This document shows positions 3,891-50,000 of a stretch of DNA of 64,000 nucleotides, in pieces. Under the pieces are notes generated by a model. The model did not search any database. It was not told the DNA's origin and saw only the letters and a list, made by a program, of their open reading frames with translations. Every line of letters starts with the position of its first letter. Position 1 is the first letter of the stretch. The DNA is from Telopea speciosissima (taxonomy: Eukaryota; Streptophyta; Magnoliopsida; Proteales; Proteaceae). Made by a program: the position numbers and the translations under genes. The stretch is taken from positions 62,448,484 through 62,512,483 of the forward strand of contig NC_057919.1 in the NCBI RefSeq assembly GCF_018873765.1. Reading direction: 5' to 3'.

Positions 3891-4403
3891 AAATACATCC
3901 TAAAAATTACAAGTTGAATCACTGTAATATGATAAAAATGCGAAACAGTGACCATGTGCAAAACCATACTCATTTCCCCCTTCCCAGTCCTTACATTTTC
4001 AAGCTATCTTTCAGACAAATGAACATCATTTATTGATAATTATATAATAACCGTTTCCTGCTTTGTATCAGAGACATCACAGCACGGTGCAGAACAAGCT
4101 CAGAACCTCAGAGATTCCTCATACAAAATTTCCTACACATGAAGAAGACCTACACATGATTCCTCATCTTTTCCTCCAAATGATAGGAAAATCAACCATT
4201 TCTCTCATTCTCTGCTGAAACAGAATGAATAAATGAATTTCTTATGAATGGGTTATTCGAAATGATGAACAAGTATGTGCACAGAAATCCTGTATTTTAG
4301 ATATCCATACGATTAACTCATTTGGTCCTTCTGCTCCTCCTTTCAAGAGCTTCTCATCCTCGGAATTGTTAGAAGAGCCAGAGAAACTGAAGGCCACCTA
4401 TCA

Positions 4404-17000: not shown

Positions 17001-20000
17001 TTTCAAATGCTGACAACTTAGAGTAATAGTTTCTTTTTGTGTTCTGCTATCAGACTGTCTGTAAGATTCATAGGAATTATATTCTTGATAGCGCACTTCC
17101 TGATATGTTGTGGAAATCTATGGAATGATTGCCTTTTCAAACTGTACACAAACTTCACTTGTAGTTTTCCTTAATGAAGGACCCACCTTTTCTACAACAA
17201 CAAACTCAGCCTTATCCCAACTTAATGGGGTCGGCTACATGGATCCAAACAACACAAAGTAGAGAAAACAAAGATCTACCCAAAAAGAGAAAGAAAGATG
17301 GGAAAAGAGGGATGGGGAAAGAGATGAGAAATGAAAAAGGAAAAAAAAAAAGACAAATGGAAGGTGATAAATAAATAGAAAAATGAAAGATGAATAATGA
17401 AAGATAGTAAGAGGCAAGAGGCACAACCCAGCACGTCGGGGGAATCTCATCTAACCAGGATCTGCGACATGGATCCTTGCCCTCCAATAGGCTCTGTTTG
17501 AGGTCATACTTGGTACAAGACCTAGACTATGTATGTCCTTCCTCACCACTTCTCCTATGGTCATTTTAGGTCTGCCCCTAGCTCTTTTAGCTCCTTCAAT
17601 CGGGATCATATCACTCCTCCTTACTGGGGCGTCCCTAGGCCTCCATTGGATATGACCATACTACCTTAAACGACTCTCTCGGAGCTTGTCATTGATCGGG
17701 GCAACTCCCAAATCCACTCTTATATGTTCAGTCCGTATTTCCTTCCTTGTTTTTCCTCACATCCATCTTGACATCCTTATTTCTGCTACACAAAGCTTAT
17801 CAATATGACACTTGTCAACTGCCCAACATTCTGCCCCATACATCATGTTTGGTCGAACAAAAGTCCTATAGAACTTTCCTTTAAGCTTTAAAGGAATACG
17901 TCGGTCACACAACACTCCGGATGCACTTCTCCACTTCATCCATTCCACTTTAATTCTATGTGAAACATCATCCTCTATATCACTTTCTTTATTGATGATT
18001 GACCCTATATATCTAAAATAGTCACTTTGCGGTAGATATCTCTCTTTCCTCAATTTGCACCATATCAGTATCCATCATAGGACCCATCTTTTCTAAGGAG
18101 ACAAATTCACTGATGCATAGCAACCATGAGATGCTATAGATTGTTGCCTTTTCAAGCTGTACACAAACGTCACTTGTGGTTTTCCTTAATGAAGGACCCA
18201 CCTTTTCTAAGGAGACAAATTCACTGATGCATAGCAATCATGAGATGTTGGCCACTGTAACCTCAAATCTAGACCAAGATCTGCCAAATTTCAATGTTAT
18301 TTTGTTCCCATTTATGTCCTCTGTTCACGTTCATTGTGTGACATTAGAAGTTTAGTTTTCATATATTATGCACCCCAAAAACTTTTGGAAGCAAATTTGT
18401 CAATTAAGTTACAAAATTAACTAATATCCCAACTAATTTGGAGTTGATTTCAAGAGCCATGTTATGCCATTAAACTCGACTTAGTTACAACAATATGGGG
18501 AAAAGGCTAAAGGAACTGTAGAAGAAAACAAATTTTTTTTTTAAGAGTATTTTGACCATCACAGCTATTCAAATTAAAATGGCCTATAGAAGGAACTGTT
18601 AAGCTCCTTAGCTATGATGCAATCACTTGAAGTTGGGTGATCTTGGGTTTTAGCGAACTTCTGTGCTTGCTTTCTGTCAGTTTAGAGATCTTTCAGGTAT
18701 GTAGTACTGAAGTTCTAGATATTGCTTTACGAGCACATACCATGCTTGAATCCTATTTTGCAAACATTGTGATTCTTGTGCGGGATCAGCTAACCTTACT
18801 TGCTGATTGTTCTGCTGTGTGGTGTGCACCAGTTCTGTGGAATAAGGCAAAATTCCTTTTCAAGAAACAAAATCTATGTAGAGTTTCCTATGTTAACCTC
18901 CATATGAATTTTAAAGTGATACCACTTGCTTTTATGAACTTCAATAACTTGTTTCTGTTTATGCAATGGCAATTGCAGAATTATTTTCCCAATAATGGTC
19001 TTGGGCTTATTTGTACATTTCACTGTGAATAGCTCCTGCAAATTCATGTTTTGGTTATGTTGATATGTACTCTTTCTCTCCTTTTCTTTACAGGACATGG
19101 AAAATTTGAGACTCTAGGGGCTCTTGGAATTTCTTGTATGCTTTTGGCTACAGCTGGGGGCATTGCATGGCATGCTTTAGATATTTTGCAAGTATGTTTC
19201 ATTTTCCCTTTTCCTCACCCTTTACCTCATTTCATTGCACCATATTACTGATAATGAGTAGTTCTTGCCCCCTATATTGACTTCAGTTTCTTCTTCTTCT
19301 TATTTTTAACATCACGGTAAGTTGAAGCATTTTAAACTAATATCTTTCTGTGACAAGTTAATACATTTTCAACAACTTGCTGTGACACTTCAATATGTTT
19401 GTGTTGAAGTGTGGTGTTTGATTGATTGCATCTCTTAGGATTAAAGTTCCTTTCCATCTGCAGGGATTACTGATGTCGACCTCTGAAATGGTTAATCATT
19501 CTTCAGTACATGAGCATGGTAGCCATCACCATGGAATTGGCATGGAGCACCCAATCCTGGCTTTGAATATGACCATTGTGTCAATCGCTGTCAAAGAAGG
19601 GTATGGAGCATTTTCTCACTGTCTACTATGTTAAAGGGTTTGGTATTATGTTAGTTCTACTGCAGGGGTGTTTGGGGTATATGCTTCTTATATTTAGGGT
19701 TCTTTATGTAATATCTAGTTACTAGGGGTATTATTGTAAATCTTTCGATATTATGTTATGTAACTCACCCTTGTGCTCACGGTTTGGTATTCAGCCAGAA
19801 CAGTGAGTCTATTTTCTTCTCTAAGATTTGTGGCATCTTCTCCTCTACTTCTCTTCTCTCTCTCTCTCTTCTGTAGGACTGATAACCTGTTTTGGTGTTG
19901 TCACTTGTAACAAAAACAAAAAGTTTTGGTGTTGTCACATGGTATCAGAGTAGGTCTGATCAGTCACTACCATTTTTTTCCTTTCTATTTTGAGAGACTC

Positions 20001-23000
20001 TTCTTAGGGTTTCTCTCTGTGGTGTGCAGCCAACTATTGCTGCTAGTTTTTTTAATTATCATGAAACCCTTGTCAAGGATTTAAGTATCGATATCGGGTA
20101 TCGTATCGGAGATGAGGATGCTAAGATGGATGTGTGGAAAAACTAGGAAGGATAAAGTAAGAAATGAGCGGATTAGAGCTGACTTGGGAGTTGCCCCGAT
20201 CAATGACAAGCTCTGAGAGAGTCATTTGAGGTGGTATGGTCATGTTCAGCGGAGGCCTAGGGACCACTAGTAAGGAGGAGTGATATAATTCCAATTGAAG
20301 GAGTTAAAAGAGCTAGGGGCAGGCCTAAAATGTCCATGGAGAAGTTGTGAGGAAGGACATGCATAGTCTAGGTCTTGTATCAAGTATGACCTCGGATAGA
20401 GCCTATGGGAGGGCAAGGATCCATGTAGCAGACTCCATTTAGCTGAGATTCTCCTGACTTGCTGGGCTGTGCCTCGTTCCTCTTATTTACATATTTCATT
20501 TTTCCTTTTATTTTCCACCTTTCATTTGTCATTTTTCATTTTTGCATTTCTCATCTCATTCCCCATCTCTTCATCCCCTTTTTTTTTTTTTCTTTTTTCT
20601 ATTTAGACCTCAGTTTTCCCTACTTTGTTTTATTTGGATCCATGTAGCCGACCCCATTAAGTTGGGATAAGGCTGTGTTTGTGATTTTAAGAGACGTATC
20701 GTATCGTAGGGGTGATTTCAAGAGACGTATCGTATCGTATCGGAGAGACGCAAGATAGGCTAAGGATATGCATGGTAATGGTCAAGAAATGCATCGATGT
20801 ACTTATGATACATATAAAACACAGTTTTGAAACATAAAACACCTTATTATGCAATATGGAAATATATATATATCATCTTGATGCAAGGATTTGTGTTGTT
20901 TTTACCTAATCTAGTGATGCATAACCGCCAAAAAAAAGAGATCTGCAACTTTACCACTTTTTCAGCCAAATCTGTTTCGATCTGTGATTTGAGCACTGTA
21001 AGTCCCCAAAACTTGTTGAAATGAGGATCACTTTTTATGTTAGATGTTTCTCCCAACTCATATCGAAGAGAAAAACAAGTTTCAAGGCCTTCGGTTGCTC
21101 TCAGTTTTGTATCTCACTCACAATTTCTGTTTTACAGGTTTAAAGGAGGGCATATCAAGTGTATCTTACCTGTATCGGACCGTATCAGTCGATACAAACT
21201 TTATTTGAAAAAAAAGTATCGTATCGGTCCCCATCGATACCGATATGTATCGGTCGATATGATACGATAAGATACGATACATACCGATACTTAAAACCTT
21301 ATTAATTAGTATGTTACATTCCATGCCTTTGTGAGTGTAAAACCTGTCAGATTATCTGGTTTAAAGCACCGTTGATATCTGCAAAAAAATTTGATGCTGT
21401 TTCTTGCTAAGATAGCCTTCTTGTCTAGGATATTTGTAAAAGGGGTGTATAGAGCTGACAAGCTTGGGTAATCATAGATACATTTGTTTACTCATTATGT
21501 CATGCCTTTGTATCTTATGGTGACTCCTGACTTCTGTGAGGAATATGCTTACTACTGCTACACTATTCATTACTGTGAGGAATATGCGTACTACAGCTAC
21601 ACTATTCATTATGGAGTTACATGGACTGCACTATTATATTTAAAAATTAGTAATTATTTACCACAAAATTAATATCTTTGTGAATGAGCAAAATGTGATA
21701 TATTTGTATTCTATGACTGGACCTTTCTGTTTTTCTTTTTGCATATTAATTCTATTTGGCAGTGTGCTTCAGTTTTTCAGTATCTGGTTTTGGTATTGTG
21801 GGTACTTATGCTCTGTTTCTTTATCTTGCGAATAGTCTCTTTTGGGTAACAAAAAGAGCTGGGGAAAAGCAAGGAAGTGGACTAATGAAAGCAAATGCAT
21901 GGCATCATCGTGCTGATGCTGTCTCATCAGTAGTTGCTCTCATTGGGGTTGGTAAGAACTGTTGTTTTCAGACCCACTCTATTATGATAACTGTGATAAG
22001 GTTATTTGTTTGACTTAGCTCGATTTATTGAACTAATTAATGTCGGACAACTAGGGCTCTAGTACCTAAATTGAACAGATGCAATCTTTAGGGGGTTTGG
22101 GATATTTGGGTGGCTTGCAGAAAGTCTTGGGGTTTCAGCATTAGAATACTTCCTGTTCCCCCCCTCCCCTCTCACTAATGGTGCTTGTTTCCAATGAGGT
22201 GTGATGGTCAAAAGATTTTACTTGGGGAAGTTTAATTGCTTATTTGCCTCTCGATAAACTTTTTATGAGGAATCACCTCGTACAGTTCAACCTTGTGAAC
22301 ACTAACTGATTCTTTTTGAATGTAGGAGGTTCTATTCTAGGTGTGAAGTTTCTAGATCCTCTTGCAGGGCTCATTGTCTCAGGGATGATCCTAAAAGTTG
22401 GAGTTGAAACCGGCTACCAGAGGTATATCTGTAATCTGTTCTACTTTCTGTTTGGTTAATTTTAGAGGGGAGGGAGACCTATTTTTTTGTTTGCTAAGGG
22501 CTTGAACTGCCTTGGATGTTGGATTTATATTTCTGAGGTGTCTAAGTAGTAAACCTATGCAAGATCTTCCATATGTATTATTAAAATTATCTCTAGTTGC
22601 AATCTCTTTGCATGTTGAGCTGTAGAATTACTAATATATTTGCAAGCGATATTTTGAGTATCATTTGATCTTGCATTTAAAGGAAATTGTTATGCATGAT
22701 ATATACTGACAACATGGTTTATTACTTTAAAAATAAAATTCGGAGTGTTTTCTTCATCCATTCATTTTCTTGTTACTTTATGGTGGATATTGCATTTTTT
22801 TTTTTTTTTCTATTTCCAATTTATGGTAGAACTTTTGTAAGAGCTCACATGATCTCCTCATTTGACGTGTTTGTTGGTTAAACCATTTAGTGTCATGGAA
22901 CTGGTGGATGCTGGAGTTGAGACGCATCTTTTAGATCTTTTTAAACAAACAATACTCCAAGTTGAGGGGGTCAGGGTAAGTACTATGCTTTTCTCTCTCT

Positions 23001-26000: not shown

Positions 26001-29000
26001 AGTTCTCACTGTGTTCATTGGCGTCTACAACTACTATTCAAAACTGGTGTTGCTTTTAATATCTGTTCGTATTGTTCCAAGCTGGAGCCCTTGATATGTA
26101 TACTCCAGCTTGAGGGGGGAGTGTTAAGATATGTATCACGAGTAGGGGGATTGTCCCTATCATGATTACATAGGCTAGTTGCTATTTCTTTGCTATGTTT
26201 CCTACTCTAGATTAAATTATTTTTTTTCCTCATTAGATTAGCTTCCTATTTTCTCTCCTTGGCTGACAAGGAGTTAATTTCCTTTTCTAATGTAACTTTC
26301 TGTTGATTTTATTATAAATAAGACAAAGGTAGAAGAGACTACACTCTCACATTACTGAGAGCTAACATAGTCGGCTGCCCTTCTCTTCTTCTCCCTCAAT
26401 TTCTCTCTCTCTATACCAGGCATTGGTTACAGATCCTTGGGATTGTTACACCAGTCATAGTGGATAAACCTTTATGGATTATTAATTATTATGACTCATA
26501 TGAAACCTTTTTAGTTTTCTTCCATATGCTTGTTCCAACTTTAGTTTTGATTAGTCTATTTTGGATGAAATGACATGTTGGTAGTTCTACTTTTTATGGG
26601 CTTGTATACTTGCTAGATGCCGAGTTGGTGAGGAAATGCATGTTTCCAACATCAAAGTGACATTTCTAGCACTAAGGCCCTGTTTGTTTGGTGGACAAAA
26701 AGGGATGGGAAAAGAGAAATTCTGGGCCCCACATGTAATGGGGTTAAAGAATAGGAAAGAGAAGGAAAGGAAAGTAAACAATGGAATTTCATTATTTTTT
26801 ATTCCAATGTGTAATAAAGTTCTGACCCCCACGGCCCCACCTGTAATAAAATCATTCCCCTCTCTTCCCCACAAAATCCTATCCAAAGTGGTGGGACTTT
26901 GGAGAAGGGAGGGGTGGTATAAATGGCTTGCCATGTAGTAGACAGGTTTCTTTAATTCATGGATGGTTGTCTGTTTAGTTTCCCACCCCAGACAACCAAA
27001 CACCTACCTTTTTTGGAATTTAATGGGAAACCCTTAATGTAGAGATTTTAAATAATCAAACAGCCCCAAAGAACAGGATCTTATCTCAGAGAATGCTTCA
27101 GATCCAAGGGATAATGGCTGATATATTTCAGTTTCTGGAAAGGGAATAAAACTGAGATGGAATATGTAGGATAGGATGATTAACATATATTGGAAATCTG
27201 ATCCTAATCAGTTAGGCAGATCAACAATATTTGGAGAATCGAGTAACAGTAGGGCAGGCAGGGTATTGGTAGAACTGAAACCAAATTAGAAATTCAGATT
27301 TTAGGAGTTGATTATGTATTGAAAATCGGTTTGCAACATAATAGAAGTCAGAACCACAGGGGTCAATACAATATTATCAACAATAGAACTCCCTACCGAT
27401 TTCAAATAAGTCACAGTACAATGTAAAAACTCAATCTGGGCAGAATAGGAGAGATATCACATAGCAGGGAATCAGCAGATCGAGTGCCTCTGTTGAAAGG
27501 GGAATACTTGACCAGAAGATGGGGTTGGTTTGATGGCTGGATTGGGCTGGGGGTGATTGACTTGGGGAACAAGTCTAACACAAAACTCAAGAACATAATG
27601 TGCAACTAAGGAATTCTGTGACTGAACTTACTCGATAATGGGTTGAATGATGGTAGAGAACCTTAAGCAACAATAGAGCAGTAATAATATAAGAACACGA
27701 ACAAAGATGATCCACCCGGGCTCTCACTGCAGGGTGTCAACAGGATCGAACACTAGTCCCTTCCTCAGATCAAACACCAAGGAAACTTTATTAGAGAAGC
27801 AAGCATGCAACAACAACAGTGGTTATTCATCAAAATCTAGGGCTATGTCTATGCCAATGATTTGTTTTTATGGATATGAAATAGAAAGAGAGTCTAGTAA
27901 CCAAATTAGAAGGTTCCAAAATTGGAAGCTCTCAATCGGCACTTGTCTTGGAGTAGAAGGTTCCAAAATTGGAAGATCTCAATCGGCCCTTAGCTTGGAG
28001 TACAAGATACTACCAGATCTGTTCTGGTGTGAAGTTAACTAACTAAACAATTACTAAAAGTAAAAAGGAAAAGGAATAACTTAAATTGACTCAAACTAGA
28101 CCACGACTTAAACTGGACCAATGGTTCAACCAGCTTGAACCAGACAACCTAAGAATAAACTTATTGTAAGAATTTAAGCCCTAATAAGTAATTCTGTATG
28201 CAGCCTTAATACCCCTAGTTTAGGCCCATTAAAGTGGCCTATTACATTAAAAACCCCATGGACCAAAGGCCCAACATGTACACAACCCAACCCTAGACTT
28301 ATTCCTAATAAAACAAGCCCTTTTCAGTGATGAATCTGCATCAACCATACAATTATCCCACCCCTTTATTCCCACCCCACTATTTTCCGTCAAACAAACA
28401 GGGCCTAATAGGAAACATATGGACTATTTTCCAAGTTTCCAAAAGGTATCCTGGACAGTAGTCCATTTTCTACTTGTTTAAGTAGTTTACACTTGATCTG
28501 CTAGTTTAGCTATATTACTATCAGCTCATGTGCCTTCAAGATTTTCACTTGGGCCTTTGACTTGAAAGTTGCGGATTGAATTTTAGGCCATTGCTTCTTG
28601 ACTATCTAACCTAGAAATAGATTTCAGATCTGCCCAACAGGTAAGATTGCAGGACACAAAACCGGACATGCTTGGTTGAAACCTAGTGATTCTCGATCAG
28701 AGAGTCAAATCTCTCTGAAATTCTGGTCAAGTGTAGGAGACAAGTAATAGAAAGAATCCCCAAAATTTTGAATAAATCCAATGGCTAGATCAAGAGATAT
28801 GACAGTGTCTTTGAAATATAAAGTTCCCAAAACAGAATTAAAAACTGATCAGGAAATAGCAACTGAAAACAATTAGAAGGTACACTAATAAAAGTCAGAT
28901 TCAGAAACTAGGACTTAACAGGTTCAGGATGTAGAGATTCTTAGGAATTAGTAACCGAAGCTGGGTTTTGTTTGTCAACTGCAGGTGCTAGGCTTCTGCT

Positions 29001-32000
29001 CAGCAGAATTAGGAAAGAGCATATGCAGGCCACTCCAAACCCCAAGGCTGATGTCTAAGAAGTCTGAAACCAGAGGTGAGATCAGAATTGATTCACAACA
29101 ATAAAACCAAACTCATGGTCAGAACAATAGTAGGAATACTCAACGAGATTAATTATCAGATTTAAGGAATGATAACGAGAACTGAAACAGAATTGTATTC
29201 TTACAAGCCGTGGGTTTGAATCAGAAACTGGCTTTGAAGTTGAAGAAGAAAAAGAAGTGTAGAATATAGAAGGTTATGCTAGACCTCTTACCTAACTACG
29301 GAGAAGGAATCTCACCCATAGTTAACAAAAACGGAATGGAAAAAAAAAGAAAAGGGAAAAGGACAGTACTGGTCTTAAACAGTGCAAAACTCTGAACGAT
29401 ACGGTAAACGGTAAAAAATGGAAACGGACCCATAGGACAGTACGGGTTCTAAACGTATAGATTTAAAAGAAAATAATTGGCAGTATACTTATAAATTGAG
29501 GAATTATTACCTGAATGCCTGCATCTAATGTTCAAAATGACGATAACATTCAACATTAATGCATATATTTTCCACAACTCATTTTAAATTCCAAGACATA
29601 TCATTCAACATCAATTCCAAATTCATACACCATAACAAAAAAACATGTCCAAAGTCTTGTTGAGTAATGTGGCTTGGCTATGGTGTTGTTCATTGTTGTC
29701 AACACAGCCAATACAAGCCTAGAGAATGTTCAGTTGGAGTTGGGAGTCATCGCTTTAGAAATCCTTTTCAGCAGATGCAACAGTTTGTTGTTCAATTTTA
29801 GGGTCCGTCCATTTTTTTTTGTGGGTGAATAAAAAATTCATTACCAAAGGAAAAAAGGGGGGGGGGGGGAGAGGATACAAACAAGCACGAACCAATTACA
29901 AAGCTCTACCAAAAAAGGCAAGAACTTGCAAAAAAGAGGGCAAAAACCCCAACAAAAAGCATCACGCTAAGGAAAGGGCAAACTCTTGGACTGTAAGGGA
30001 CACCCAAACCAGCCTCGACGAACTCACTCTATCCCGGGTCCAAAATCTCGCGGCAAAAAGCATGATCTCTGATATCCAAGCTTAGGGGCAAATCTTCTCC
30101 GGAGTCTGGACGGGGAAGGGAGTAGGCTATGTAGGGGCGATTCTTAGGGAAAGAAGGGGAGCTGGGGTTGCGAAGACGAAAGACTCTAAGGGGAGGGGGG
30201 CACAAATGGGGGCAATAGGCTGGGGCACAAAGGGGGGTGATCCAAACTTGGGAGTAAAGGCCCAAACTAGGGTGGGCGAGGAGAGGAGAATTAAAACAAT
30301 GGGTTGAAAGGGAAGAATTTCTAGGCCTATTAAGCCCAGCGGGAATAGCTGAAGAGGAGGGGGAGATGGGCTTGGGCATAGAGGGAAAGGGGATAAGAGT
30401 AGGGACCACAGAGGGGCCCACAAAGGGAGTATCGCAAGGGGAAGAAGGGAGAGAGGTACGAGAGGTCAAAAAGGATTTCTTTTGCCCTTTGAGGAAATTT
30501 GAAATCCCCAGGTTCAAAAGGATAGGATTGGGAGAGGACAAGACGGTGATGGTAGGGGCCAACTCGAGCACCATAGAAGGAAGAGCAAGGATGGCAGGAG
30601 CGTCAGAGGGATCAGACGAAGAGTCCAAGGGGAGGAAACAATTGTGACCAGCGGACCTTAGGCCATTAGAGACCAACAGACAGGAGGGAGTAACAGGGGG
30701 AGATTGGAGGGGGAAGAGGAGGCGGAGACATAGCGGCAAGCATGATTACGAGACTGCCGCCAACGACGATCTCGAGAGGGGGAAAAAGAGGGGGCACCGT
30801 CTCCACCAGGGGAGGAAACGATGGGAGAGAGGGAAGAAAGGGACTTTTGAGAGCCCAAGCTAGGGTTACCAGGGGAGGCGATAAGGTCAATGGCATGGGT
30901 GAGAGAATATGGAGGAGCGATAGGGTTGACGGGTTCGAGAGAGGGTTGGGGGTTGGTTTCAGAAGCAAGGGAAATGGAAGGAGGACAAGGCAGGGACTAA
31001 CATTTGCCAAGGAAGTGACTAAAAACTTTGCAAGAAGCAGGATGGGGAGGAGACCAATCGAAGTTCATGGATTGTTGGAAGGAAAATCCTTCGTTATCAG
31101 TGACGGTTATAGAGGTCGGTAGAGGGACATTGGCAGTAACTTCGACACAGATTCTGGCGATGGCGAGCCTATCTTGCTTCTTTGTTCTTCCATCTGAGAA
31201 GAGAGGCTTCCCTAGGACAGAGCCCACCATGCTGAGACCATCCTCACACCAGAAGTGAAGTGGAAGCCTTGACAGAGAAACCCAGAGAGGGATAGAGCTG
31301 AGATCGAGTTTGTTGAGTTGCAGGTATCGATCCCATTGCCTGAGGAAAATTGGTTTCCTGCCAACATTCCAAGGACCACCTTCAAGAACACGAGATTTGT
31401 CTAGCTCCTCAGAAAATTTGAAGATAAAGAGGCCGTTCTCAAGCAAGTCTCAACTGAACCCAGAAGTTTCCATTGCTTGGAAAGGGAGGTTCTGACAATG
31501 GGGAAGGGGGGACGACTATCAATAAAATGCCCAACAAGGCATATTTCCCATTTGCGAGCTTCATTGACCAGGAGGATAGAATCGTACTGGGCAACCATGG
31601 TGGAACCGATAAAGGTGGGGGGGGGGGAACAAAATGTAAACAATGGCCATCTCCAGTAGGAGACTTGGAGTTGCCGAAAAGGGAGGACCAAGACAGGCCA
31701 GAGATTAGGGGACCAGCAAAGGGATGGCGGGAGGTAGGAGAAGATGGGAGAGAGGGAGGGAGAGGGTCCTCGGGTGGTGGCGGTGCCACCCCAGGAAGGA
31801 CGGACATGGGAGACTTCAGAGCATCGTCAAGCAAGCTGTTGATTGGACTATTTCCCGGGGTCCGTCCATTGAACCTGAGTTGAAGGTGATATCATGAGAC
31901 ATGTAGCCATTCGAGTCAGCTTTTATGTCAGTGAAATATCAGGTCGATCGGAGTTCAGGAGAGAGAGATATGGTCAGTTAAGTAAAGCCATTGTGTTCAA

Positions 32001-35000
32001 CAAGTCTAAGATCTTAAAAACGACAAAAAAAAGGGAGCATGTTTAAAACACTTTAAAACGGTAGAAAACGGAACGCTGTTTTAAATGTGTTTTAAACGCA
32101 TTTTTGCTAAGAGACATCCCACCAACTCCAACCTTAGCATCCCACCAAGATTTCCGTACTGCATCCCACAATAGGGCAGTTCTGAATCCCACAGAACCAT
32201 GCTCTGTCTCTCACAGAACTCAACAAGCTCAAGCCTAAATTGTTTTCCAAATCGTGGGGGGTGGTGTTACGACCCCTTCTTTATTTATAGGCTAGCAATA
32301 GTACCAAGAAAAATAGCAACCCTTTATGCACAGGTAAAAAGATTTCTAGTGAAAACAAAGTCGAAAGTTTTCTAAACTGGTCACAAGGAATAGAAACTAA
32401 GACCTAAGGACTAGGATTGAGACTTAGACAATTGTCTAGCCTTATAGAACACTAAAAGAAAAAGAAAATACATAATAAAAATAACCCACGACTTGCTAAT
32501 AACAAAATACAGAAAAATATTCAACTGTTCCTGCGTACATTATGACCCTCCCCAGACCCCGCATTGGTGGACCTCAGTGCAATGGTAAGGTTGCTCCATT
32601 GGTTACAGGTTTGAGTCGAGAAACAACCTCTCCGCAAAGTGGGGGTAAGGCTGCATACATTATGATCTTCCCCAAACCCCACAGTGGCAGGAGTCTCGTG
32701 CTCTGGGTATGCCCTTTTTTATTAGACTGTTCCTGCACAAGATTTGAAATTTGGTTCAACCAAACCATGAACCAACCATAGACCAGACCTAGGATCTGGT
32801 TCAACTAAAACCACAAGACCAATTCACTATTTCCTACAACCGTAGGTCCTTCTCCTCTTCCCTTGTGATGAGATCTGCATCATCTCTCCCCAGTTTGGAG
32901 AGTCAAGGAATGAGCTTAGTATGGTGCACATCCAACTTTAACCTGTAGCAAAACTTTGGCAGGTCTAGAAAGTAGGGAATTTATCTTCCAGGCATGGAGC
33001 TTACACTTTGAAGTATTCGGGTGGAATGACGAACTCGACGTGTTTAATGTCACAATCATCATCAAGAGTAAAGGATGTACCCTAGTAGTCTTCTGCATTA
33101 TTATCGTCGACTTCTGCACCCTTTGTTTCAACTTCCATTGTAGTACCAATGCCTTAGACTTCTCACCACTACCATTCTCAGTAACCTCCATCAGTTAAAC
33201 CAAACTGTTGTAATTTGGGGTACAAGGGTATTTTTGTCCCTTACGGGTATTCTTGTACTTGTGCCTATTCTAGAACATTCTCTAGTCTATTATAAATAAA
33301 GTGGGTTGTGGACATAAGGTCACAAGCCATTATCCTCTAATTCTTTATGGTATCAGAGCGAAGATCATCATGGGGATCTGAACCCTAATGCAAAAACCCT
33401 AGCAGCCTTCTCTCTCTCAACGTTGCCACTACCCAGCACCAGCGCCCCCTCCCTCCCTCGGTATCAGCGCTGCTGCCCCCTCCATAGTTGTCAAGGCATC
33501 GCCTAGGTGCCTTGGTCGCCTAGGCGGACGCCTTGGACGCCTAGTTGGTGCCACCTTGATTTTGGACCCTCTCCAATGCCTTGAGTCGCCTAGACGCAGT
33601 GACAACTATGCCCCCCTCTCGGTTCTGCCTCTCTCTTTCTCCTATCGGTCTCTTTTTTTCTCTCGGTTGCACCAAATACCGCCTCTGCCAGCTTCTAGTG
33701 ACTCCCCGTCGTGGTGCTCCTTTGTCTCACCCCTTGGTGGTGATTCCTTCCACCGAGGGTTCCTTTTTTTGGTGAATCTATAGTGTTTGAGAGATCTCCT
33801 ATTTTTCCCTTTTTGAGATCTATGTTTTAATGTAGTCCTAGGTTTTAATAGTGAAACTAGGAACCAAACATAATGTAGTCCTAAGTTTGAATAGTCAAAC
33901 TAGGAACCAAACCAGGATCTTTTATCAAAAGGTGAATCACTTTAGGGTAAATCCAGGAGAACAATGGAGTGAGAAATCGTATGAGGAAACCCAGAAAACA
34001 ATGGGAAATAAATCATATGAGAAATCCAAGAGAACAATGAGAAATAAAACATATGGGGAAACCAAGAGAACAATGGGAACCCAATTATATTAGGTTAGGG
34101 ATGGGTTATGAGTCATAGATTTTGTTAGCAGAAGAATTACCGCCAACCTCAACCATAGAGTCAAATTCAAGTAGAACAATAATGGAGAGCCTCAAAAGAG
34201 AACCAAAACAAACCACTTGGGTTTCCCACCGCAAGGTATCAATTGGATCAAACACCAATCCCTCCAGCTTTGATCAAACACAAGACAAATCTTCAATGGA
34301 AGAGAGCAGCTAAAAACATTTTTATTATCAAAATTCGTGTTCAATACTTGCCCCCCTTTCAACCTTATGTAAAAGACTAAAAAATAGACTCCTACACTGA
34401 AAGGAAAGGCCTAACCTAATCCTTAACCTATTAGGTAACTTAAACTGGCTAAGAAACTGAAATATACTTAAAATAGAGTCCTAATCCAGCCCCACTAAAC
34501 ACTTAAAAGAAAACTACTAAAATCACTTAAATTGAACCATTGGTTGAACCGGTTCAATTTATGAACAAAAACACCAAAATAAAACTAAGTATGGAACTAA
34601 AACAACTAATCCCGTATTCAATCTTATTACCCATACTTTAAGTCCATAAAAGTGACCTATTACATAGAAAACCCATGGGATCAAAGGCCCAAAATGTATA
34701 GAACCCAACCCTAGACTTATTCCTAATAAAACAAGACTATTTCGGTGATGAATCTGCATCATGTTTCTCTTCCCAGAAATTGTTTGATTTGCCTGATTTG
34801 GCTATGCCCTTTTCAGAGGCCTTTAGTTTGAAGATTTTTTGATTTCTGATTAGCAACTATGTCAGGCGTGACCACCGATGTGGCTTCTCCGGACCATAGT
34901 TGTCCAGACGGCTGCCGGCCTACCGCCTTATTGTAGGGCACCCCCTTGTACTACTTTAATTGGTATAGCACTTATTTATGCCAAATATCATTTAAGTGAA

Positions 35001-38000
35001 ACACATTTGCTTAAGATATTTTTCATAAATAAGCAAATACCCCCTATTTGAATCCAATAAAAATTGTTAAAAAATCAAATTCCAAAAGGATAAAAAGTCA
35101 ACCCCCCTCCCCAGTCAAGAACACAAACTAGATTTTTGGTGGTAAGTGAACTTTTTAACTTTCTAATGCTAGGGTTTTTCTCAAATCTAAAAATTCCATA
35201 AATCTTAAAATGGTAAAACATTGCTAAAAACCAAAAGTGCTATAAAATATTCATTTGTTTTGATATTTAAAAAAAATATTTTCATGCAGACCAATTTTGA
35301 CAGCATTTGTGCACACCAAATAAGGTTTGACCGAAACATAACTCCTTCAATATAAACCGGATTTAAGCAATCTTGGATTTGTTGGAAAGCTGGTTTTGTG
35401 CTTTGCCTAATACAAAAAGTCTCATGTAAAAATAAAATCATTTGATCAATCAAATTTCTTAGAGAACAAGAACATTTCTCTAAATCGAGAGCAGGTTAAT
35501 TACTTATTGATAAGATCATATTTTCTAAGAACAATATAAACCAAATATGTGACTAGGTATACCTGAAAATGACTAATTCCGAGAACATATAAAACCAAAT
35601 GTATGTTTTGATTGTTTCAAACTTCCAATAACTTGCTTCTTCAGTTCTGTTGTCTTTTATTTCTATGTTGATTTCTGATGACCTGATGCGGCTTAATATT
35701 GATTTTTGATGACTTGATGTGACTTAATGTTGATTTTTGATGACTTGATGTAGCTTAATATTGATTTTTGATGATATAAGGTACATATCATACTAAATAA
35801 TGTTAGAAAAGAGGGGAAATAAGAAATAATACTTGGGCGCCTTGGTCACCTAAGCGCTTAGACACCCCTCCACCGCCTTGGGTTGCCTACTTGCCTTGCC
35901 GCCTTGACAGCTATGCTCTAGACACTAATTGTGATCGTTGCTTTCCTACGTTCCTTGTTTGTTCCATTAAATTGGATGGGAACAATTATTTGATGTGGTA
36001 TTGTTCCTGCTTCCTTTCCATAGCGTCCCGTGGATTTTCTGGCTAACTTACCGGGGATGCTATGAAGCCTAAAGAAGCTGGTCTTACTCAGAACAAATGG
36101 AATTCGGACAACTATCTGGTAATGTCCTATCTTATTAATTCCATGCACCCAAATATTGCGCGGGGTTATCTCTTACTGGATTCAGCGGCCAAAATCTGGA
36201 AAGCAGCTAATGATATCTACTCTCAAGTGGGTAATGATGCTCAAGTCTATGAACTCCAGAAGAAGATTCTTGAGACGAAATAGAAAGAGATGACATTATC
36301 CCAATATTTTTCTGAGTTGTGAAGTATGTGGTAAGAGTTAGACTATTATGAGGATTTCTCTGCTTCTTGCACTACTGATGCCTTGAAGTTCACCAAAATG
36401 GAGTCATGGTCGTGGTCGTGGTCGTGGGACCGGTTCGGTTCAGGCACACCAAACCAAAACCACTGAAGTTGCATTGAAGGTTACACTGATGTTGATTGGG
36501 CTGGTTCTCCTCACAATAGACGTTCCACCTCCAGATACTATACTCTGGTTGGTGGAAACCTCGTTACTTGCCTCAACAAGAAGCAAGCAGTGGTTGCTCA
36601 TTCTACTACAAAGGCTGAGTTTAGGGCTATGGCCCATGGTATTTGTGAACTTCTCTGGCTTCAGGGTCTTCTCCAATATCTGTGTGTCCCTGTTCAGCTT
36701 CCCATGCAACTCTTTTGTGATAGCAAATCAACCATCAATATTGCCTACAACCCAGTTCAGCATGATCGGACGAAGCATATTGAGATTGATCATCACTTCA
36801 TCAAGGAGAAGTTAAAACAAGGCCTCATTTGTGTTCCTTTTATCACTTCTGCAGAGCAACTGACAGATGTGTTCACTAAAGCCTTATCTAGTAAAGTTTT
36901 TCATCCAATTATTTCCAAGTTGAGCATGATTGACATCTATGCACCAACTTGAGGGGGAGTGTTGTAATTTGAGGTACAAGGGTATTTTTGTCTTATTTTA
37001 TCCCTTAGGGGGTATTCTTGTACTTGTGCACATTCTAGAATAGTCTCTAGTCTATTATAAATAAAGTGGGCTGTGGACATAAGGTCACAAGCCATTATTC
37101 TCTAGTTCTTCAAAAACATACAACATGAGTGACATGAGTCTCCGGACCGTCCTTATCACCAACATCAGCAGGCTGCTCCTTAATCTCCTCCTCAGGAAGG
37201 ATTCCATTATATAATTTTACCTTCACATGGGCTTGAACGGCTGCCACACTAGCAATCTCCGGGTGTTGAGGGCAGAACTTGGCGAAGTGGCCATGGTTGT
37301 TGTAGTGGTAGTACTTCGTTTCACTGCCACTAACCATAAAAGCCTCTCCCTTCTCTGTAGCAGTAGAAGCACCTGTCTATCGAACTGTAGGACTATCCAA
37401 GGCAACAGTGTTTGGTGCCCTACTGTACTCACAAACTTGGAAACCATAGTGCCTGGCTGCGGATTTCAATAATTCTTTGGCACGTAGAGCCTTTCGGAAA
37501 CAATCTTGAAGATTAAATATATCAGTGACATCAATTGCCATATTGATCTCTGGTTGCAACCCTAACCTGAATCTGGCAATCAGTTTTATGTCCTCTATTT
37601 CGATACCCGTGCGAGAAGAAAGGGATAATCGTTCCATGTGCTCAGCTCCAGATAGAGACCCCTGTCATAGAGAGTTGGTAGTGCAATCGATCTTTAAACG
37701 TCTGAGGGAGATACTCTTGAGCTCTTCTTCCATCGCAGCTCAAGTAGTCGGTGCTGTACCACGCTGCTCTAACTTCCGTTCATATGTTATCCACCATTCA
37801 CGTGCAGCCCCAACCAAGTTGTTCATGTCAGCTTCAGTTTCCTGACCTTTGGTAGGTCGTACCAGTTGTAGAACACCTGGGGTCATGCTTCCCGCTATAC
37901 TCCTTCAGCTCCAACTTCAACTTGAGTATCATTGAAGCGCCACTGAGGAGTGCCAGTAAAAACGCATGGCGATGTTCAAGGGATAGTGGTGTTATGTTCC

Positions 38001-41000
38001 TCTGTGCCCCCTTACCATAAATGTGTGAGTGTTGTTAGCTGTGGAATAAGCTGGCTGCCCTACCTAAACTCCTTGATGTTCAAAACTGCCAAGCATAGGG
38101 GTGGAGAACTAATCCTCTGTTCCCTAAGAGTCATTCTTCAGACAGTTGCTGCATCATCTCAAACATTCGAGTGAAAGGATCAGGGGTTTGATCTGGAGCC
38201 GTTGTATTGCCCTCTGTCATGCTCTGATACCAATTTAATAGAATCTGGTTTAACCTAGAAATAGGTTTCAGATTCTGCTCAACAGGTGGGATCGCAGGAC
38301 ACAAAACAGGACATACTTGGTTGAAACCTAGTGACTCTCGATCAGAGAATCAAATTTCTCTGAAATTCGGGTTGTGTAAGAGATAAGTAATAGAAAGAAT
38401 CCCCAAAATTTTGAATAAATCCAACAGTTAGATCAAGAGATACGGCAGTGTCTTCGAAAGTAGAAAGCTTCCAAAAACAGAATTTGAAGCTCTCAGAAAT
38501 TAGTAACCAAAGCTGAGTTCTGTTTATCAACTGCAGGGGCTTGGCTTCTGCTCTACAGAATTAGGAACCCGCATGCACAGGCCACTCCAAACCCCAGGTC
38601 TGATGTCTAAGACTTCTGAAACCAGAGGTGAGATCAGAATTGATTCACAGCAATAAAACCAAACTCATGGTCAGAACCATAGTACTATAACTCGCGAAAT
38701 TTCGGTCGAGATATCGAATATTTCGAGTATCTCGACCTGTCCGAAACGAAACGTAAGTCCGATATGAAAAAATGCAATATTTCTAATATTTCGGAAATTT
38801 CAATGAAATTTCGGTCATCTCGTTTCGGAAATTTTGGAAATCTTGGTAATTTCGGTAATCTCGTTTCGAAAATTTCGGAAATCTCGGTCATTTTTGGCAT
38901 TTTACACCCACAAAAAAATACCATATTTCGACGAAATTTCGGTATCTCGGAAATTTTGGTCAGACCGAAACACTGAAATGAAACGAGATTTAGTACCATG
39001 GTCAGAACAATAGTATGAATAATCAATGAGAGTAATTATCAGATTTTAGGAATGATATCCAGAACCGAAATAGAACTATATTCTTATCAGCTGTGGGTTT
39101 TAATCAGAAACTGACTTTGAAGTGGAAGAAGAAGAAGAGTAGAAGATAGAAGGATATGCTAGGACTTAAAAGTTCTGATTTAATTTAAAGGTTAAACCAG
39201 TACTAAAAAACAGAATCGAAACAGAGACATAAAATTCCAGAATTGGGAGAAAGCAGATAGTTTAAAAACTGTTAGATCAGGCAATATGCCTGGTCGAGTT
39301 CTCCTCTTGGGGGTTATAAACCTTGCTGAAAGTTCCAGCAAGATCCAATGGCTGGATCTGAAGATATGAAGGACTGCTAGTAACAGTAGGACAGAGTCAA
39401 ATCTGTCAAACTACAATTCTGATTAATGATCAGATTATAGAATTATAAAATCCAATTAAAACTTGATGTATGATATTAAAATCAGATGAAATAGATCAGC
39501 ATATGAGGAGTATTGACTTCAGCATTCAAACCAGCGAAACCCAATCCTACTTGAAGTAGGACTATAGCAAGTAGCCAACAGAATCTGGGTCTGAAAACAG
39601 ATTATGAAAGAGGACAATATCGATTGGAGATTTCCGAAATCAGATTTTAATTCAGAGTTGTAAATCACCTTCAAATCAGCAGTCCTAGTGAATGACCCCC
39701 AACGCTTCTTATTTATTAAAGTCCACAAAATAGAGTTGGAGTTGGGCTGGGAAACCCCCTAGCTGACTCCTACAACATGGCCAAATCCTCTTTGAAGTCT
39801 AAATGGCCTTTAAGAGGAGATGGACTCAACTAAAAACACTTAAAGACAATGTACAAAATATCTAACTTAAACTGAATCAAACTGAACAAATTGAACCACT
39901 GGTTCAACCGGGACTGATTTAAAAAACACTTAAAACAGAAAAGAACAACTTAAACAAGAATCAAAGTGGACCCAACCCTTTAAAATAGGCTGGGCCACAC
40001 TATGACTGAAACTTCTTGGACTTCCTACACTGGTAGGTCTTCAATTCTGCATCAACTCTCAAGTCTCACCTAACTGTGGAGAAGGAATCCCACCAAATCC
40101 AGCCTTAGCATCCCAGAGTAGAGCATGTTTTGAATCTCGTAGAATCATGCTCTCTCTCTCACAGAACTCAACAAGCCCAAGGCTAAATTGTTTCTCAAAT
40201 CATGGGAGATGTTATGACCCCTTCTTTATTTATAGACTTGCAATAGTAGAAGAAAAATAGAAACTCTTCATGCACAAGCAAGAGCGTTCTAGTGAAAACA
40301 AAATAGAAAGTTTTCTAGACTGCTTGCAAGGAATAGAAACTAAGACTTAAGGTCTAAGACTGAGGCTTAGGCAACTGTCCAGCCTTCTAGAACACTAAAA
40401 GAAAAAGAAAATACACAATAGGAATAGTCCACAACTTGCTAATAAGAAAATCCAGAAAAATATTCAACTGTTCCTGCGCAAGACTTGAAATTTGGTTCAA
40501 CCAAACAATGAACCCACCCATAGACCAGATCAAGAATCTGGTTCAACTAAAACCACAAGACCAATACCCTATTTCCTAAAACCGTAGGTCCTTCTCCTCT
40601 TCCCTTGTGATGAGATCGGCATCACTATCCTAGCCGTTGCTGATACATGACAATAAATATGGTATTATTGGTTGTATATGCTTGTTATTTGATTGTTTCC
40701 ATTTATTAGTCTCTTTTAATGCTTGCTGCTACTGGATTTGGTTGGCTGTTTATTCTACTTTGATGATTCTAGCGTTATGTTTCACTGTTCAGAACATATT
40801 GGTGATGTTTGGGTTCTAATAACCTGTTGGCTTCTTCAGAACTTTGTTTAGAAGGGGGAAAAAGAAGAATGTCACTTGTGGGATGAATTCAGGACTAATT
40901 TTTCTTTTTGCAAAATTTACTTGTTTTTTGTTTGATAAGAATTTCTGTAATACCTGTAGGGATGCCACCGCTTGAGGGGAAGGAAGGCTGGATCTTCTAT

Positions 41001-44000: not shown

Positions 44001-47000
44001 GTTGGAGAGTCCTTACTTGACTAAAATAATAGAAGAAATCAACCAAAAGGAAAACTCCTCTCGTTGGCTGACTTGGAGTGTCCAAATCTATCTTAACGAC
44101 TTGATTAATAAATAAAAAACTAACGCACTTATAGTTTCCTAATCTAGCCCCACTTTTACAATAAAAATCTGTTATAAAGTATTACACAACCTGAAGTGAT
44201 AAGATTTCAGAAATCTTGGAATCTAGAAACCGCAAGCTGTTTTAGAAGTCTTCAAACTGGGTCCCACTTCTAATGGCAGCTGTCTAAAACACTTTTAAAA
44301 TAAAATAATCTAATAACAACAAGTAATGGATTCCACATAATCTTATCTATATACTTAATCCTGTATACAGAATTAAGACCCCAGATATGAGATTAGAAAA
44401 GAGGCCTGTTACATCAATAAACCTAAAGATAAGAATTCCACGGTCCATAGAAACCACCTTGGGCTACAATAAAGTCTTCCAAGGCCTCATTGGCCCAATT
44501 GGACAATCTTAACTGCATCAACTGTCTTGTTGCTTAAAGAAAGCTTATAAACTGATGGAGTCCAAGTTTTTGCCTTTCCGCTTGGACAAGCATTCAAACA
44601 ATGCTGTCAGTCCTATTAGGAAAAAGGATATCTAGTTTGCTGTCAGAAAGAAATTAGTATGCTGTATAGATGTTCATAACATTGCATCTCAAAGTAGAAA
44701 CTGTCTTGGATCTTCCAATTTTCAATTTCAAGCATTATCCCAAAACTTTTTGACCTATTTTGATATTTCAACTTAATTAGAACAACAATAAAATTAGATA
44801 CATTCTTTTTTGGGGGGTAGGGGGTAATGAAATTACTAGTAGCTGAAACAGGATGGTTAAACTGCATGTCTTAAGACAATTACTGACCAATTACACTCTG
44901 AACCTCACTTGGCTAACAGGTTTGCCTGGAATAATTAACCATGTAACTTCATTTAGTGGAGAAGACAACTCAACCAATGAGCACACCTCTCCCTCTGCTC
45001 TCTAATGTCGGTCGACAACTCATGCAATGGGCTGGGTGTATCAATGAGCACACTTCTCTCTCTGCCCTCTAATGTCTGTCAACTTTTGAATAGCACAAAG
45101 TTTAAGGTGGGTCCTTTCTTTTCAATTTTACCTTCCACTAGTTTATTCCTTCATCTCATAGGATTGATTTTAAAAATGAGTTGTTGTAATCAATGCAAGG
45201 AGTAGAATGGTAAAGTTGATAAGAAGTTAGGGAGAGGGATGGATATGCTAGCTGTATACCGTAAGCTAGCACCCTATGTGTCTATCTCTCTCTTCCCCTC
45301 TTTTGAAATGACTCCCTTACCCCTCAAAGGGAGGAAGAGAGAGATAGACACATAGGGTGCTATCTTACTGTATACCGCTAGCATACCCAGCCTTTTCCCA
45401 AGAAGTTATTACCCAATTAATAAGGTGGACAAACATTTGGGGACATCCGAAGGAGAGGAAGTCAATCTTGTTGGGGGGGGGGGGAGGGAGTATTTTTGCA
45501 CTGGACTGTAGCAAATTCAAGATTGGATGTTGAAAGTTGGAGGCTTGTGTGAGTTCATTGTGAGGCATTTGTAAGCTATTATCAAGTTATGGAAAAGTTC
45601 ATCAATCCTTTGACCAGTACAACTTACAGATTCCCATCTGACTTTACATTTAACACAGTTATGCTGTATGCTTATTACTTAACTTTGCAGTGTGAGGGTG
45701 CCAGCTAGCTCAGCTGGTTCTTTGGGTTGTCATAAACCAGACCTGCGATTGAGTCCTGCCTTCACCCTTCCGTCTCTTACCCCCATCCTTCTCACTCTAT
45801 TTGAGTTGATTTGGTCTAACTTGTATTCTATACAGTAGAAAAGATGTTTAAAGTTAAATGACACATGCATCATCAAGCATGGCATGAAAAATTATTTCAT
45901 AAAAAAAAATGGAATTTAATAAAAATAAAAGCGAATTGTTATTATAAGAGTCGTTTAATGGAATGGTTTCTCACGTTCTCAATCGTGAGTTTCTTGTATA
46001 TTTATAATACTGTGAATTAGTTACAATAGATGTACAAGAGATAAGTATAAAGGAGTTGTACAGGAGAACAAGATGGAACTTGTTATGGTGGTTGCATTAT
46101 CGTATGTGAGTCGGTTTGTTTAACCAGCTCAGGAGACGTCTTATGAGAGGTTGCTGAGTCACTTGCTGAGTCATCAGAGTGACGTGTTCCATTACACCCC
46201 CTCAAGCGCAACTGTGGGTCGGTGACAGTAAGCTTGGAACGAAGAACACCGAAGCAAGAAACTGCAAGGGGCTTGGTCATGATGTCTGCAGTTTGCTCTT
46301 GAGTTGGAATGAAGCGAACCTCTAAGACCTTCTTGGCAACTTGATCACGAATGAAATGATAGTCAATCTCCACGTGTTTTGTGCGTGCAACCCCAATATT
46401 GTCACACCAAATGACCGGTGGGCAAGGTGGTGAGTAGCCAATGTCACGAAGGAGATATTGGAGCCAGAGTAACTCGGAGGCAGAGTTAGCAACCCCTTTG
46501 TATTCTGATTCGGCGCTAGACCTAGCAACGGTGGGTTGCTTCTTGGAGTTCCAGGAGATCAAGTTGGGTCCAAGGAAAATACAAATCCACTGGTGGATTT
46601 GCAATCGTCGGGACAACCCGCCCAATCTGCATCGGTGAATGCAGTTAATGTAGCTGAGCGAAAGGGTTGGAGATAAATCTCATGATGGAGTGTGGCCTTG
46701 ACATAATGAAGAATGCGCTTGACAGCAATCCAATGCTCAGTGGTGGGGCAATGCATGAAGTGACAGACTTTGTTGACAGAGAATTCCAGATCTGGCCGTG
46801 TAAGTGTGAGATACTGGAGAGCACCTACAGTGGTACGATACAAAGTGACATCAGACAAGGGCTGGCCGGATTCCTTTGAAAGTTTGGAGGAGGAAGGGGC
46901 CATAGGAATAGAACACGGCTTTGCCTTGAGCATGTGGGTGCGTTGAAGGAGGCTGGCAGCATACTTAGATTATGTGAGGTGCAAACCTTGAGAAGAGCGA

Positions 47001-50000
47001 TGAGATTCAATGCCCAAAAAATAACTTACAGTGCCAAGGTTCTTGATCGTGAATTCCTGTCCAAGGGTGGTGATGAGAGAGGTAACCGAGTGGGGGTTAC
47101 TGCCGGTGATGACAATGTCATCCACATAGATGAGGAGAAGTAGAATGGCATTGGAGGTGCGATGAATGAATAGTGATGAATCAGCCTGAGATGTGACAAA
47201 GCCAAGAGAAATGAGGTAGGTACTCAGGCGATGGTACCAAGCCCTAGGGGCTTGTTTGAGGCCATAGAGAGCCTTGCAGAGCTGGTAGACATGGTTGGGA
47301 AATTGTGGATCAACGTACCCTTGGGGCTGTCGCATGAAGACTTGTTCGGTAAGGTTCCCACGAAGGAAAGCATTTTGGACGTCAAGTTGGCGTAACGTCC
47401 ATTTGTAAGTGACGGCAAGGGAGAGAACAACCCGTATCGTTGCAGGCTTGATAATCGGGTTGAAAGTTTCATCATAGTCCAAGCTAGCCTGTTGGGTGAA
47501 GCCTTTGGTGACAAGATGCGCCTTATAACGATCAATAGTACCGTCAGCCTTTGTTTTAATCCGATAAATCCATTTACAATTAACCAGATTCATGGATAGG
47601 TTATGGGGAACTAATCCCAAGTGCCATTGCAAAGTAACGCATTGAACTCAGATGCCATTGCGTGGCGCTACCAGGGATCTTTGTTTGCAGTTGAGAAACA
47701 TGTCGCCTCAGGTTCGGTAACCATGGAGTGGAAGCACTGACAAATGGGGTGCTTAGATGTGAGCAGCACCTTAGGCTTTCTTATATTATTTTTTAGCCTA
47801 GTGAGCATAGGATGGGATGGTGTGGGTGGGGGTGGTAGAGCTAAAGTGGGAGATGGGTTCGGTAGTGGAAAGGGAGCCATCTCGGTTGGGGTAGGGGAAA
47901 TTGGGTCAGTGGAGGGTGGTGAAGTAATACCTAAGGGGTTGAGTGGGGACGGTGAGGTAGGCACCCCCTGAATGGGAACCAGGGGACTAGGGAATGGACC
48001 GAGAACGATGGGTTTGTTTGGCTGTGGTGGTGATGGAGTGGAGGTGGTAGGGAGGGCAAATGGAAAAAATTCTTCATTGAAGACCACATGGTGAGAGACA
48101 TGGATCCGACCAGTTTGGCGGTCAAGACATCGATACCCACGCTTTTTCACGTCCTTCCTTTCGGGAAGGGAGGCTTGTCGACCTATTGATTACAGCTTTC
48201 TCCAGACCTCCGGAAAAGCATAAAAAAAGGCTCGAATGGTATGATCCCTCCGCCACCCCAGAATGGTGAGGTGCGTAGCCAATAAACACACTGTTTGGAG
48301 CGATCCTCCAATTTGTGGTGAGTGTAAGGCCGGAGCCACGGGTAGCATGCACAACCAAAAATTCTTTACTGTAAATAATCGGGTTGCTGACCAAATAATA
48401 TTTCATATGGCTTGGCATTGTGAAGCATTGGAGTCGGCATGCGATTAATAAGAAATACAGCTGTGAGAAAAGCATCATCCCAGTGTGTGCGGGGAACAGA
48501 GGCGCGGGTAAGTAAGGTGACACCAGTCTCAACGATGTGCCTGTGCTTGCGTTTGGCCCTGCCATTTTGAGCCTGAGTATGAGGGCAGGAGAGCTGATGT
48601 AAGATGCCATGTTGTTCCAAATAATGACGAAAAATGTGATATTCACGACCACCCTCAGATTGTATTGCCTTAATTTTGGAACCAAAAAATTCCACCAGTG
48701 TCTTGAACCTGATAAAGGTAGGAAGAGCTTCTGATTTGACAGTAAGTGGAAATAACCAGGTATATCTACTGTAAGCATCAATAAAGCTAATATAATAGCG
48801 AAAACCAGAAGGGGAAGGTATAGGAGAGGGTCCCCACAAATCCGAATGAATTAATTCCAATGGTGCAGTACAGTAATTTAAAGAAGAAGAAAATGGAAGT
48901 CAATGCGACTTTCCCAAGTGACAAGGTTCACAAAACCATGAGAAGAGGATGTTGTAGTCGGCAATGCATGCTTGTGAACAATAGAGGAGGTGACGCGATT
49001 GGTAGGGTGACTGAACCGATCATGCCAGACCATGATTGGAGCACGTTCACCAAGACAAGCGGAAGGAGAAACACTGGAGCGCAGCACATCCGTAAGAGAG
49101 GTAGAGACTTTATTGGTGTGGGCATCTTGAAGCTGATATAACCCACCTTTATTCTGGCCCCGCAGCAGGATATTCCCCGAGTATCGATCCTTAGCACAAC
49201 AGAAAGTCGGGTGAAACTCAAAAACCACATCATTTTCTTGTGTAAACTGAGATACAGAAAGCAGGTTCTTCTTGATATGTGGGACATGATAACTATGACG
49301 TAGAGAAAATTTAGAAACTGGTGTGTATAATGTGGAGGATACAATATGAGAGATACGCAAACCTGAACCATTGGCGACCCGAACGTGATCAGAACCAGTG
49401 TAGTCAGACCAAGTGCTCAGATTTGCCATGTCAGAGGTAAGATGATGCGTGGCACCAGGATACCAGTAGGGATCCGAAGCCGTAGGAGTAGTAATATACT
49501 GTCCACAGGGAGGAGAAGATGGCGGCTGGGCAGCATACATAGCTGCTGGTGGTGAAGAGATGCCTTGACCAGAGGGCTGTTGTGGATACTTATATGCAGG
49601 ATTAAAGCGTTGATAGCACTGTAGAGCAGAATGACCCGGCTTAGTGCATACCTGACAAGTAACACGGGGCCGATTATCAAAATGCTGGGAGAAAGAGCGA
49701 GCACGGCCGTGACCGCGACCATTACCCCTTCCACGATTATGTGAAATTGAAGAGGAAGTATTGGAAGAGCGTATAGCAGCATGAGCAGTGATGGAGGCAT
49801 CAGGTTGGAGATCAGTAGAACGGCTTTGAAGCAGTATCTCCTGATTGAATAGCAAACCGATTAAATCATCAAGTTCTATAGGGTCAATCCGAGAGGTGAC
49901 CGAGGTAACGAAGCCATCATATTCGGGACCGAGGCCACTGAGAATACTAAGAATGAGCTGAGAATCCGGTACAGGGTAAGCAACCGCAGCAAGATGGTCA

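Follow-up and report, generated by a model that had tools for sequence, protein, structure and literature searches.

We analyzed a 64,000-nucleotide stretch of the Telopea speciosissima genome (hereafter the window), which contains two LTR-like direct repeats and, in the right repeat only, a short element bounded by target duplications. The features at this locus are as follows.

28607..29282, minus strand: left direct repeat (LTR-like), without the element; from the alignment.
29118..29125, no strand: empty target GTCAGAAC in the left repeat; from the alignment with the right repeat.
38251..39162, minus strand: right direct repeat (LTR-like), bearing the element; strand taken from a PBS-like motif.
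38670..38677, no strand: left 8-bp target duplication GTCAGAAC; from the alignment and copy comparison.
38678..39000, plus strand: 323-bp non-autonomous element; from the alignment with the sister repeat and from ends common to the genome copies.
38678..38694, plus strand: left terminal inverted repeat (TIR) CATAGTACTATAACTCG; 14 of 17 bases match the right TIR in the window copy.
38704..38737, no strand: left subterminal quasi-palindrome GGTCGAGATATCG...CGAGTATCTCGACC; from the sequence, paired in the DNA fold.
38780..38893, plus strand: AAATTTCGG / ATCTCG word array; TRF periods 9, 23 and 41, length variable among copies.
38984..39000, minus strand: right TIR CATGGTACTAAATCTCG; from the alignment, the genome copies and terminus counts.
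39001..39008, no strand: right 8-bp target duplication GTCAGAAC; from the alignment and copy comparison.

The two repeats (38251-39162 and 28607-29282) are homologous on both sides of the insertion, with 512 of 578 aligned bases identical (88.6%). Both flanks align, and the objection that a sequence-only reading of this DNA had raised against itself, that the repeats might not be homologous beside the insertion, can be set aside. As that reading had claimed, the right repeat carries an extra 331-bp block composed of the 323-bp element plus one 8-bp GTCAGAAC, the element begins and ends with CATAGTACTA and TAGTACCATG, and the left repeat reads through the site, where a single GTCAGAAC at 29118-29125 forms an empty target without a footprint. 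The expectation of a single 331-bp gap held only in part: the block is present, but the alignment also contains five gaps of 1-3 bp and one of 93 bp, which corresponds to a segment of the left repeat (28846-28938) that is missing from the right one. Since CATG both precedes the left duplication and forms the last four bases of the element, a 12-bp repeat is created at this locus (38666-38677 and 38997-39008) and the boundary of the element is uncertain here by 4 bp; this ambiguity is settled by other genomic copies, which fix the ends. A further copy (L093) is also flanked by GTCAGAAC, but its flanks do not match the window and we regard the agreement as a coincidence. An Rfam scan of 38500-39200 returned nothing at gathering score.

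A PBS-like motif on the minus strand (38222-38232), together with the two direct repeats, suggests that the pair may represent a minus-strand LTR element, whose 5' LTR would be the right repeat. Between the repeats, 11 translations (10 distinct frames) were scanned with Pfam. The sole match above the cut-off among these translations was a DUF4283 ORF (30997-31446, minus strand, E 7.7e-28), which is possibly part of another retroelement; two further matches were weak and below the cut-off, and gag, protease, reverse transcriptase (RT) and integrase families matched none of the 11. The 'gag-only' label given to this retrotransposon from the sequence alone is therefore not confirmed by the translations scanned. 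On the plus strand, the PBS-like motif recurs at three places, 19940, 23816, and 33348. The last of these directly follows the first copy of a 117-bp repeat pair (33229-33345 and 36994-37110, 88% identical), and a small plus-strand LTR-like element (33229-37110) is probably nested inside the larger repeat pair. We also noted a tandem repeat with 31 bp spacing (35665-35774), an ORF within the nested element (36467-36952) that resembles Copia RNase H by eye and has no Pfam match, and minus-strand fragments of a Copia-like polyprotein at 46083-50548, whose ORFs resemble RT, integrase, and gag by eye.

Searching the genome from which the window comes (822.9 Mb, 1,287 contigs), we obtained 1,379 candidates, of which the best 40 were scored: 38 span positions 1-323 and two miss one or two end bases. 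The copy comparison used 40 copies (39 fetched plus the window copy), and these are the best-scoring ones, so their duplication quality is biased towards young copies. Among these best copies, 31 of 40 carry exact 8-bp duplications and 36 carry duplications with no more than one mismatch in the 8 bases; with shuffled partners (200 shuffles), the average was 1.0 and the highest value 4. The genome search for common ends with 8-bp duplications, which had been proposed from the sequence alone, thus gave the predicted outcome. Four copies (L012, L016, L022, and L047) have no good duplication. For every other duplication length from 2 to 13, at most one exact match was observed in the 40 copies, and none of them shows an exact duplication of 9 or more. 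The family ends are CATAGTACTAAA...TTTAGTACCATG, and the left TIR in its family form (CATAGTACTAAAACTCG) matches the right TIR at 15 of 17 positions. Allowing up to one mismatch, the 17-bp terminus CATRGTACTAAAWCTCG is found 3,442 times in the genome (1705 forward and 1737 reverse), compared to 18 times (9 and 9) for a reversed-pattern control. Among 100 termini listed, 22 adjacent pairs less than 450 bp apart delimit elements of 255-361 bp.

These data bear on the possibility that the sequence is a locally expanded low-complexity or satellite sequence and not a mobile unit, an explanation that would suit the TRF periods of 9, 23, and 41 inside the element. The excess of termini over the control speaks against it, as do the common ends and target duplications, which were seen on each of the 11 largest contigs and in themselves refute it; we therefore give it next to no credence. 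The earlier proposal that a sequence with the appearance of low-complexity DNA is in fact a discrete mobile unit is upheld by the fixed ends, the 8-bp duplication, the presence in one repeat only, and the thousands of termini.

The 36 good duplications favor the sequence nTYnnRAn. Specifically, position 3 is C or T in 34 of them and position 6 is A or G in 30, while positions 2 and 7 are most often T and A, respectively (20/36 each). Additional empty sites were found outside the repeat pair, one of which lies in the window:

17812..17819, minus strand: paralogous empty site for copy L034; window sequence that is LINE-like by eye reads through the L034 target.

The flanks of L034 and this uninterrupted relative are 79.6% identical over 618 aligned bases. 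We note that these flanks match two related window fragments, 17467-18080 and 20110-20426, both LINE-like by eye. Two other copies, L033 and L042, are inserted about 7 bases apart and in opposite orientation in related sequences that resemble Copia RT by eye, and each provides the empty site for the other. A preferred site is a possible explanation for this near-identical insertion point.

The divergence values address when the window copy arrived. Compared to the family majority, it shows differences at 6 of 256 non-CpG positions and 7 of 66 CpG positions, whereas the divergence of the repeat pair is K2P 0.125 (0.107 outside CpG). Together with the clean empty site, these values fit an insertion of the window copy after the direct-repeat pair had formed, in agreement with the order of events read from the sequence alone, with the majority being only a stand-in for the source element. 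Alternatively, both repeats may once have contained the element, and excision or conversion may then have removed it from the left repeat; the empty site would in that case be secondary. hAT elements do excise, and the comparison here rests on two repeats. However, the left site consists of one clean target copy with no footprint, LTR pairs start out identical, and the divergence of the copy from the majority outside CpG (2.3%) is less than half that of the pair. On balance, such a loss seems very unlikely to us.

The body of the element consists to a large extent of short CpG-containing words. TTTCGG occurs nine times in the window element (both strands), whereas 1000 dinucleotide shuffles yielded 0.82 on average and never more than 4. 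In the family majority (322 nt), we counted 13 TTTCGG and 8 ATCTCG, compared to shuffled means of 1.1 and 0.5, respectively. The CpG observed/expected ratio is 2.7 throughout the family majority and 0.46 in the window. Copy lengths range from 307 to 346 in the best 40; the commonest, 326 (5 copies), 335 (4), and 344 (4), are spaced by 9 bp, and many intermediate lengths occur too. Most of the length differences fall within the AAATTTCGG array, and 20 of the 40 copies contain a second variable block, 12 columns wide. Copies differ in their word units, probably via slippage. The assignment to the 'foldback' class made from the sequence alone was not supported: the element strand folds far better than its shuffles (z -5.7), yet this strong fold contains no single long inverted repeat. 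Foldback (FB) elements have long inverted repeats of tandem units that fill most of the element, and they create 9-bp duplications, whereas the 323-bp element has a TIR of only ~17 bp and 8-bp duplications.

Based on the 8-bp duplications, the abundance of the termini, and the nTYnnRAn preference, we conclude that the element is a high-copy, non-autonomous DNA transposon of the MITE type that most likely depends for its movement on a hAT transposase acting in trans, and we assign this reading a probability of roughly 0.84. The element is short and non-coding, has terminal inverted repeats, and is of high copy number and fairly uniform size, with duplications in 36/40 copies and empty sites in the left repeat, for L034 versus the window, and mutually for L033 and L042, as is characteristic of MITEs. 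An 8-bp duplication whose second and seventh bases are most often T and A, respectively, is characteristic of Ac-type hAT elements. Their target preference is nTnnnnAn, a string that co-occurs with 'hAT' and 'transposon' in 9 papers. The hAT TIR consensus is (C/T)A(A/G)NG, which is a tendency and not a definition; the family TIR starts with CATAG or CATGG and fits this consensus at four of five positions, departing at the third. Membership of the hAT superfamily is thus probable and not proven, because the third TIR base departs and an incomplete search found no autonomous partner with these ends. The same two observations would be accommodated if the MITE were moved by another superfamily with ~8-bp duplications (Mutator-like, P, or Merlin). 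This seems improbable to us, given that 36/40 copies have duplications matching over 8 bp and none has an exact one of 9 or more, that the site preference is palindromic with its commonest T at 2 and A at 7, and that CpG-enriched ends are also found on hATs of the same genome. The hAT-type MITE that we favor is a new family of a known kind, ordinary except for its striking composition and high copy number. We found no earlier description of it among the paper titles and abstract openings listed.

The closest known counterparts are found in maize, in Drosophila, and among the transposase-bearing hATs of this genome described below. Ds1 elements in maize are shorter than 500 bp and have both their 11-bp TIRs and their 8-bp duplications in common with the autonomous Ac (PMC3260210). 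Like the 323-bp family, Ds1/Ds elements are short and non-autonomous with 8-bp duplications, and some have a transposase-binding hexamer near their ends (PMC3260210). They differ in their TIR and in that the word of the 323-bp family is TTTCGG/ATCTCG, not AAACGG, and fills the whole element; moreover, most Ds1 have fewer than three hexamers and the autonomous partner is known there, unlike for the 323-bp family. Mar, a Drosophila hAT (Buster) MITE, was placed by its duplication consensus nnnTAnnn, and is similarly recognized by 8-bp duplications and short TIRs (PMC3517528). It differs in that consensus, the 323-bp family having nTYnnRAn, and in its TIR, CAG(G/A)GGTAGGC (PMC3517528).

Longer relatives with the same ends were also found. 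We fetched 1.5 kb for each of ten termini without a listed partner, and eight of the ten led to an element with a duplication (at most one mismatch), of 313, 316, 325, 332, 813, 935, 943, and 976 bp; L095 and L097 showed no duplication within the 1.5 kb. The three relatives of 935-976 bp have the left ~100 bp in common with the 323-bp class (85-87%) and the right 84-102 bp (76-85%), and differ from it in between. Their interior is repeated in the genome (best 40 of 2,388 candidates, 93-97% identical excluding the query itself). The right end of this long class occurs 272 times with up to two mismatches, versus 0 for the control, and all six loci fetched from 100 long-class right ends listed contain elements of 793-925 bp, four with exact and two with one-mismatch duplications. 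Four long elements were measured, and in these both the words and the CpG cluster in the terminal 150 bp (CpG observed/expected 1.1-2.8 versus 0.6-1.1 in the middle). The 323-bp class resembles a pair of such ends with the middle left out. The longest stop-free frame is 79 aa in L095, 112 aa in L097, and 78-93 aa in the four complete long elements. When the long-class interiors were compared by tblastx to nine 10-kb hAT loci, the matches listed included two in L084 that were short and weak, and others in L079 and L087 that coincided with MITE-like stretches or lay close to them.

The genome also contains hATs that bear a transposase. Seven of these (L080, L081, L082, L083, L085, L086, and the host element in L079) resemble the 323-bp family in having exact 8-bp duplications and CpG-enriched terminal regions (CpG observed/expected 0.9-2.1 at the ends versus 0.3-0.65). 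They differ in that they are 4.5-5.8 kb long, all enclose a hAT dimerisation match, and start with TAAGG, TAGGG, or TAGGC, unlike the CAT[A/G]G of the family, and in that their words are other ones or missing. TTTCG/TCTCG words are dense, at the right end only, in L080, L081, L082, and L086, are sparse in L083 and L085, and in the L079 host element were not found within the terminal 150 bp; the word design common to these hATs is therefore only partial. The four with dense words (L080, L081, L082, and L086, flipped) are 4.8-5.4 kb long with TAGGG(G/A)TGTCAA ends, and have 4-11 CCGAAA in their last 300 bp, with this word nearly absent mid-element.

Because the sister elements of 793-976 bp and the seven hATs concentrate words or CpG at their ends, we consider the words TTTCGG and ATCTCG to be probable subterminal binding sites for a transposase, by analogy with known systems. 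Short motifs near the element ends are reported to be bound by the Herves, Ac, Tol2, and Tag1 transposases (PMC3143072); for Ac, the motif is an AAACGG hexamer that is repeated within the terminal 200 bp (PMC3260210). Hermes is bound at its left end via BED domains and at its right end by no BED domain (PMC10368747). We propose that a BED-type hAT transposase would bind the CpG-containing words near the ends, would then pair the ~17-bp inverted repeats and excise the element, and would insert it at an nTYnnRAn site; in the 323-bp class, an array of the same words would link the left end to the right one. The AAACGG hexamer itself is absent from the element. In maize, mobility neither requires this hexamer nor is ensured by it: three or more hexamers occur in only 17 of 331 Ds1, some Ds1 without hexamers move, and the tested Ds-l elements with hexamers did not (PMC3260210). 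This two-sided maize evidence tempers our confidence in the hAT reading, as do the partial word design and an end-like match in L064. We also considered a broader idea, in which several hAT lineages with unrelated TIRs would share one design of CpG-word-array ends that keep CpG far above the genome, with the 323-bp family as the limiting case and the words as a tunable, methylation-sensitive landing array for the transposase with turnover of 9-bp units; this we regard as speculative and rather doubtful. The element offers no new mechanism. It nevertheless belongs to a well-delimited mobile family that could be mistaken for low-complexity DNA although its termini number in the thousands, and the family's natural variation in the number of putative binding words between fixed ends makes the relation of word number or CpG methylation to transposition success testable.

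A transposase-bearing element with CATRGTACTAAA...CTCG ends was not found in an incomplete search of the genome's hAT loci. Neither the 100 listed termini nor the 100 listed right ends of the long class include one within 10 kb of any of the 150 hAT dimerisation matches that were scored. In L064, the first 10 bases of a match at 3170 fit the family end and CTCG is absent; at 1e-20, this locus is not similar to any other hAT locus fetched. A weak end-like match lies at the edge of locus L055. Several other end-like matches were rejected. Those in L050, L052, L062, and L063 lie where similarity to other hAT loci continues through them, those in L053, L076, and L087 (at 4396) are the aligned counterparts of these, and the match in L059 falls beyond the limits of the hAT that was delimited in L080. 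The family terminus itself was present in two of 30 hAT loci scanned, L054 and L069, of which the latter (at 2872) points away from the hAT gene. L054/L079 was considered as an autonomous partner, with 227 bp of the family's right half ~700 bp beyond the hAT dimerisation domain, and was ruled out since the duplication CTCATTAG bounds a separate 403-bp relative (L079, flipped 7157-7559). This relative is nested within the L079 host hAT (flipped 3812-8304), which is 4,493 bp long and has perfect 12-bp TAAGGGTGTCAA ends and a GGTTTGTC duplication; Pfam matches in the L079 ORFs include hAT RNase-H and dimerisation, with zf-BED just below the cut-off. A full copy of the 323-bp family lies outside this host hAT, at 9250-9555 (flipped).
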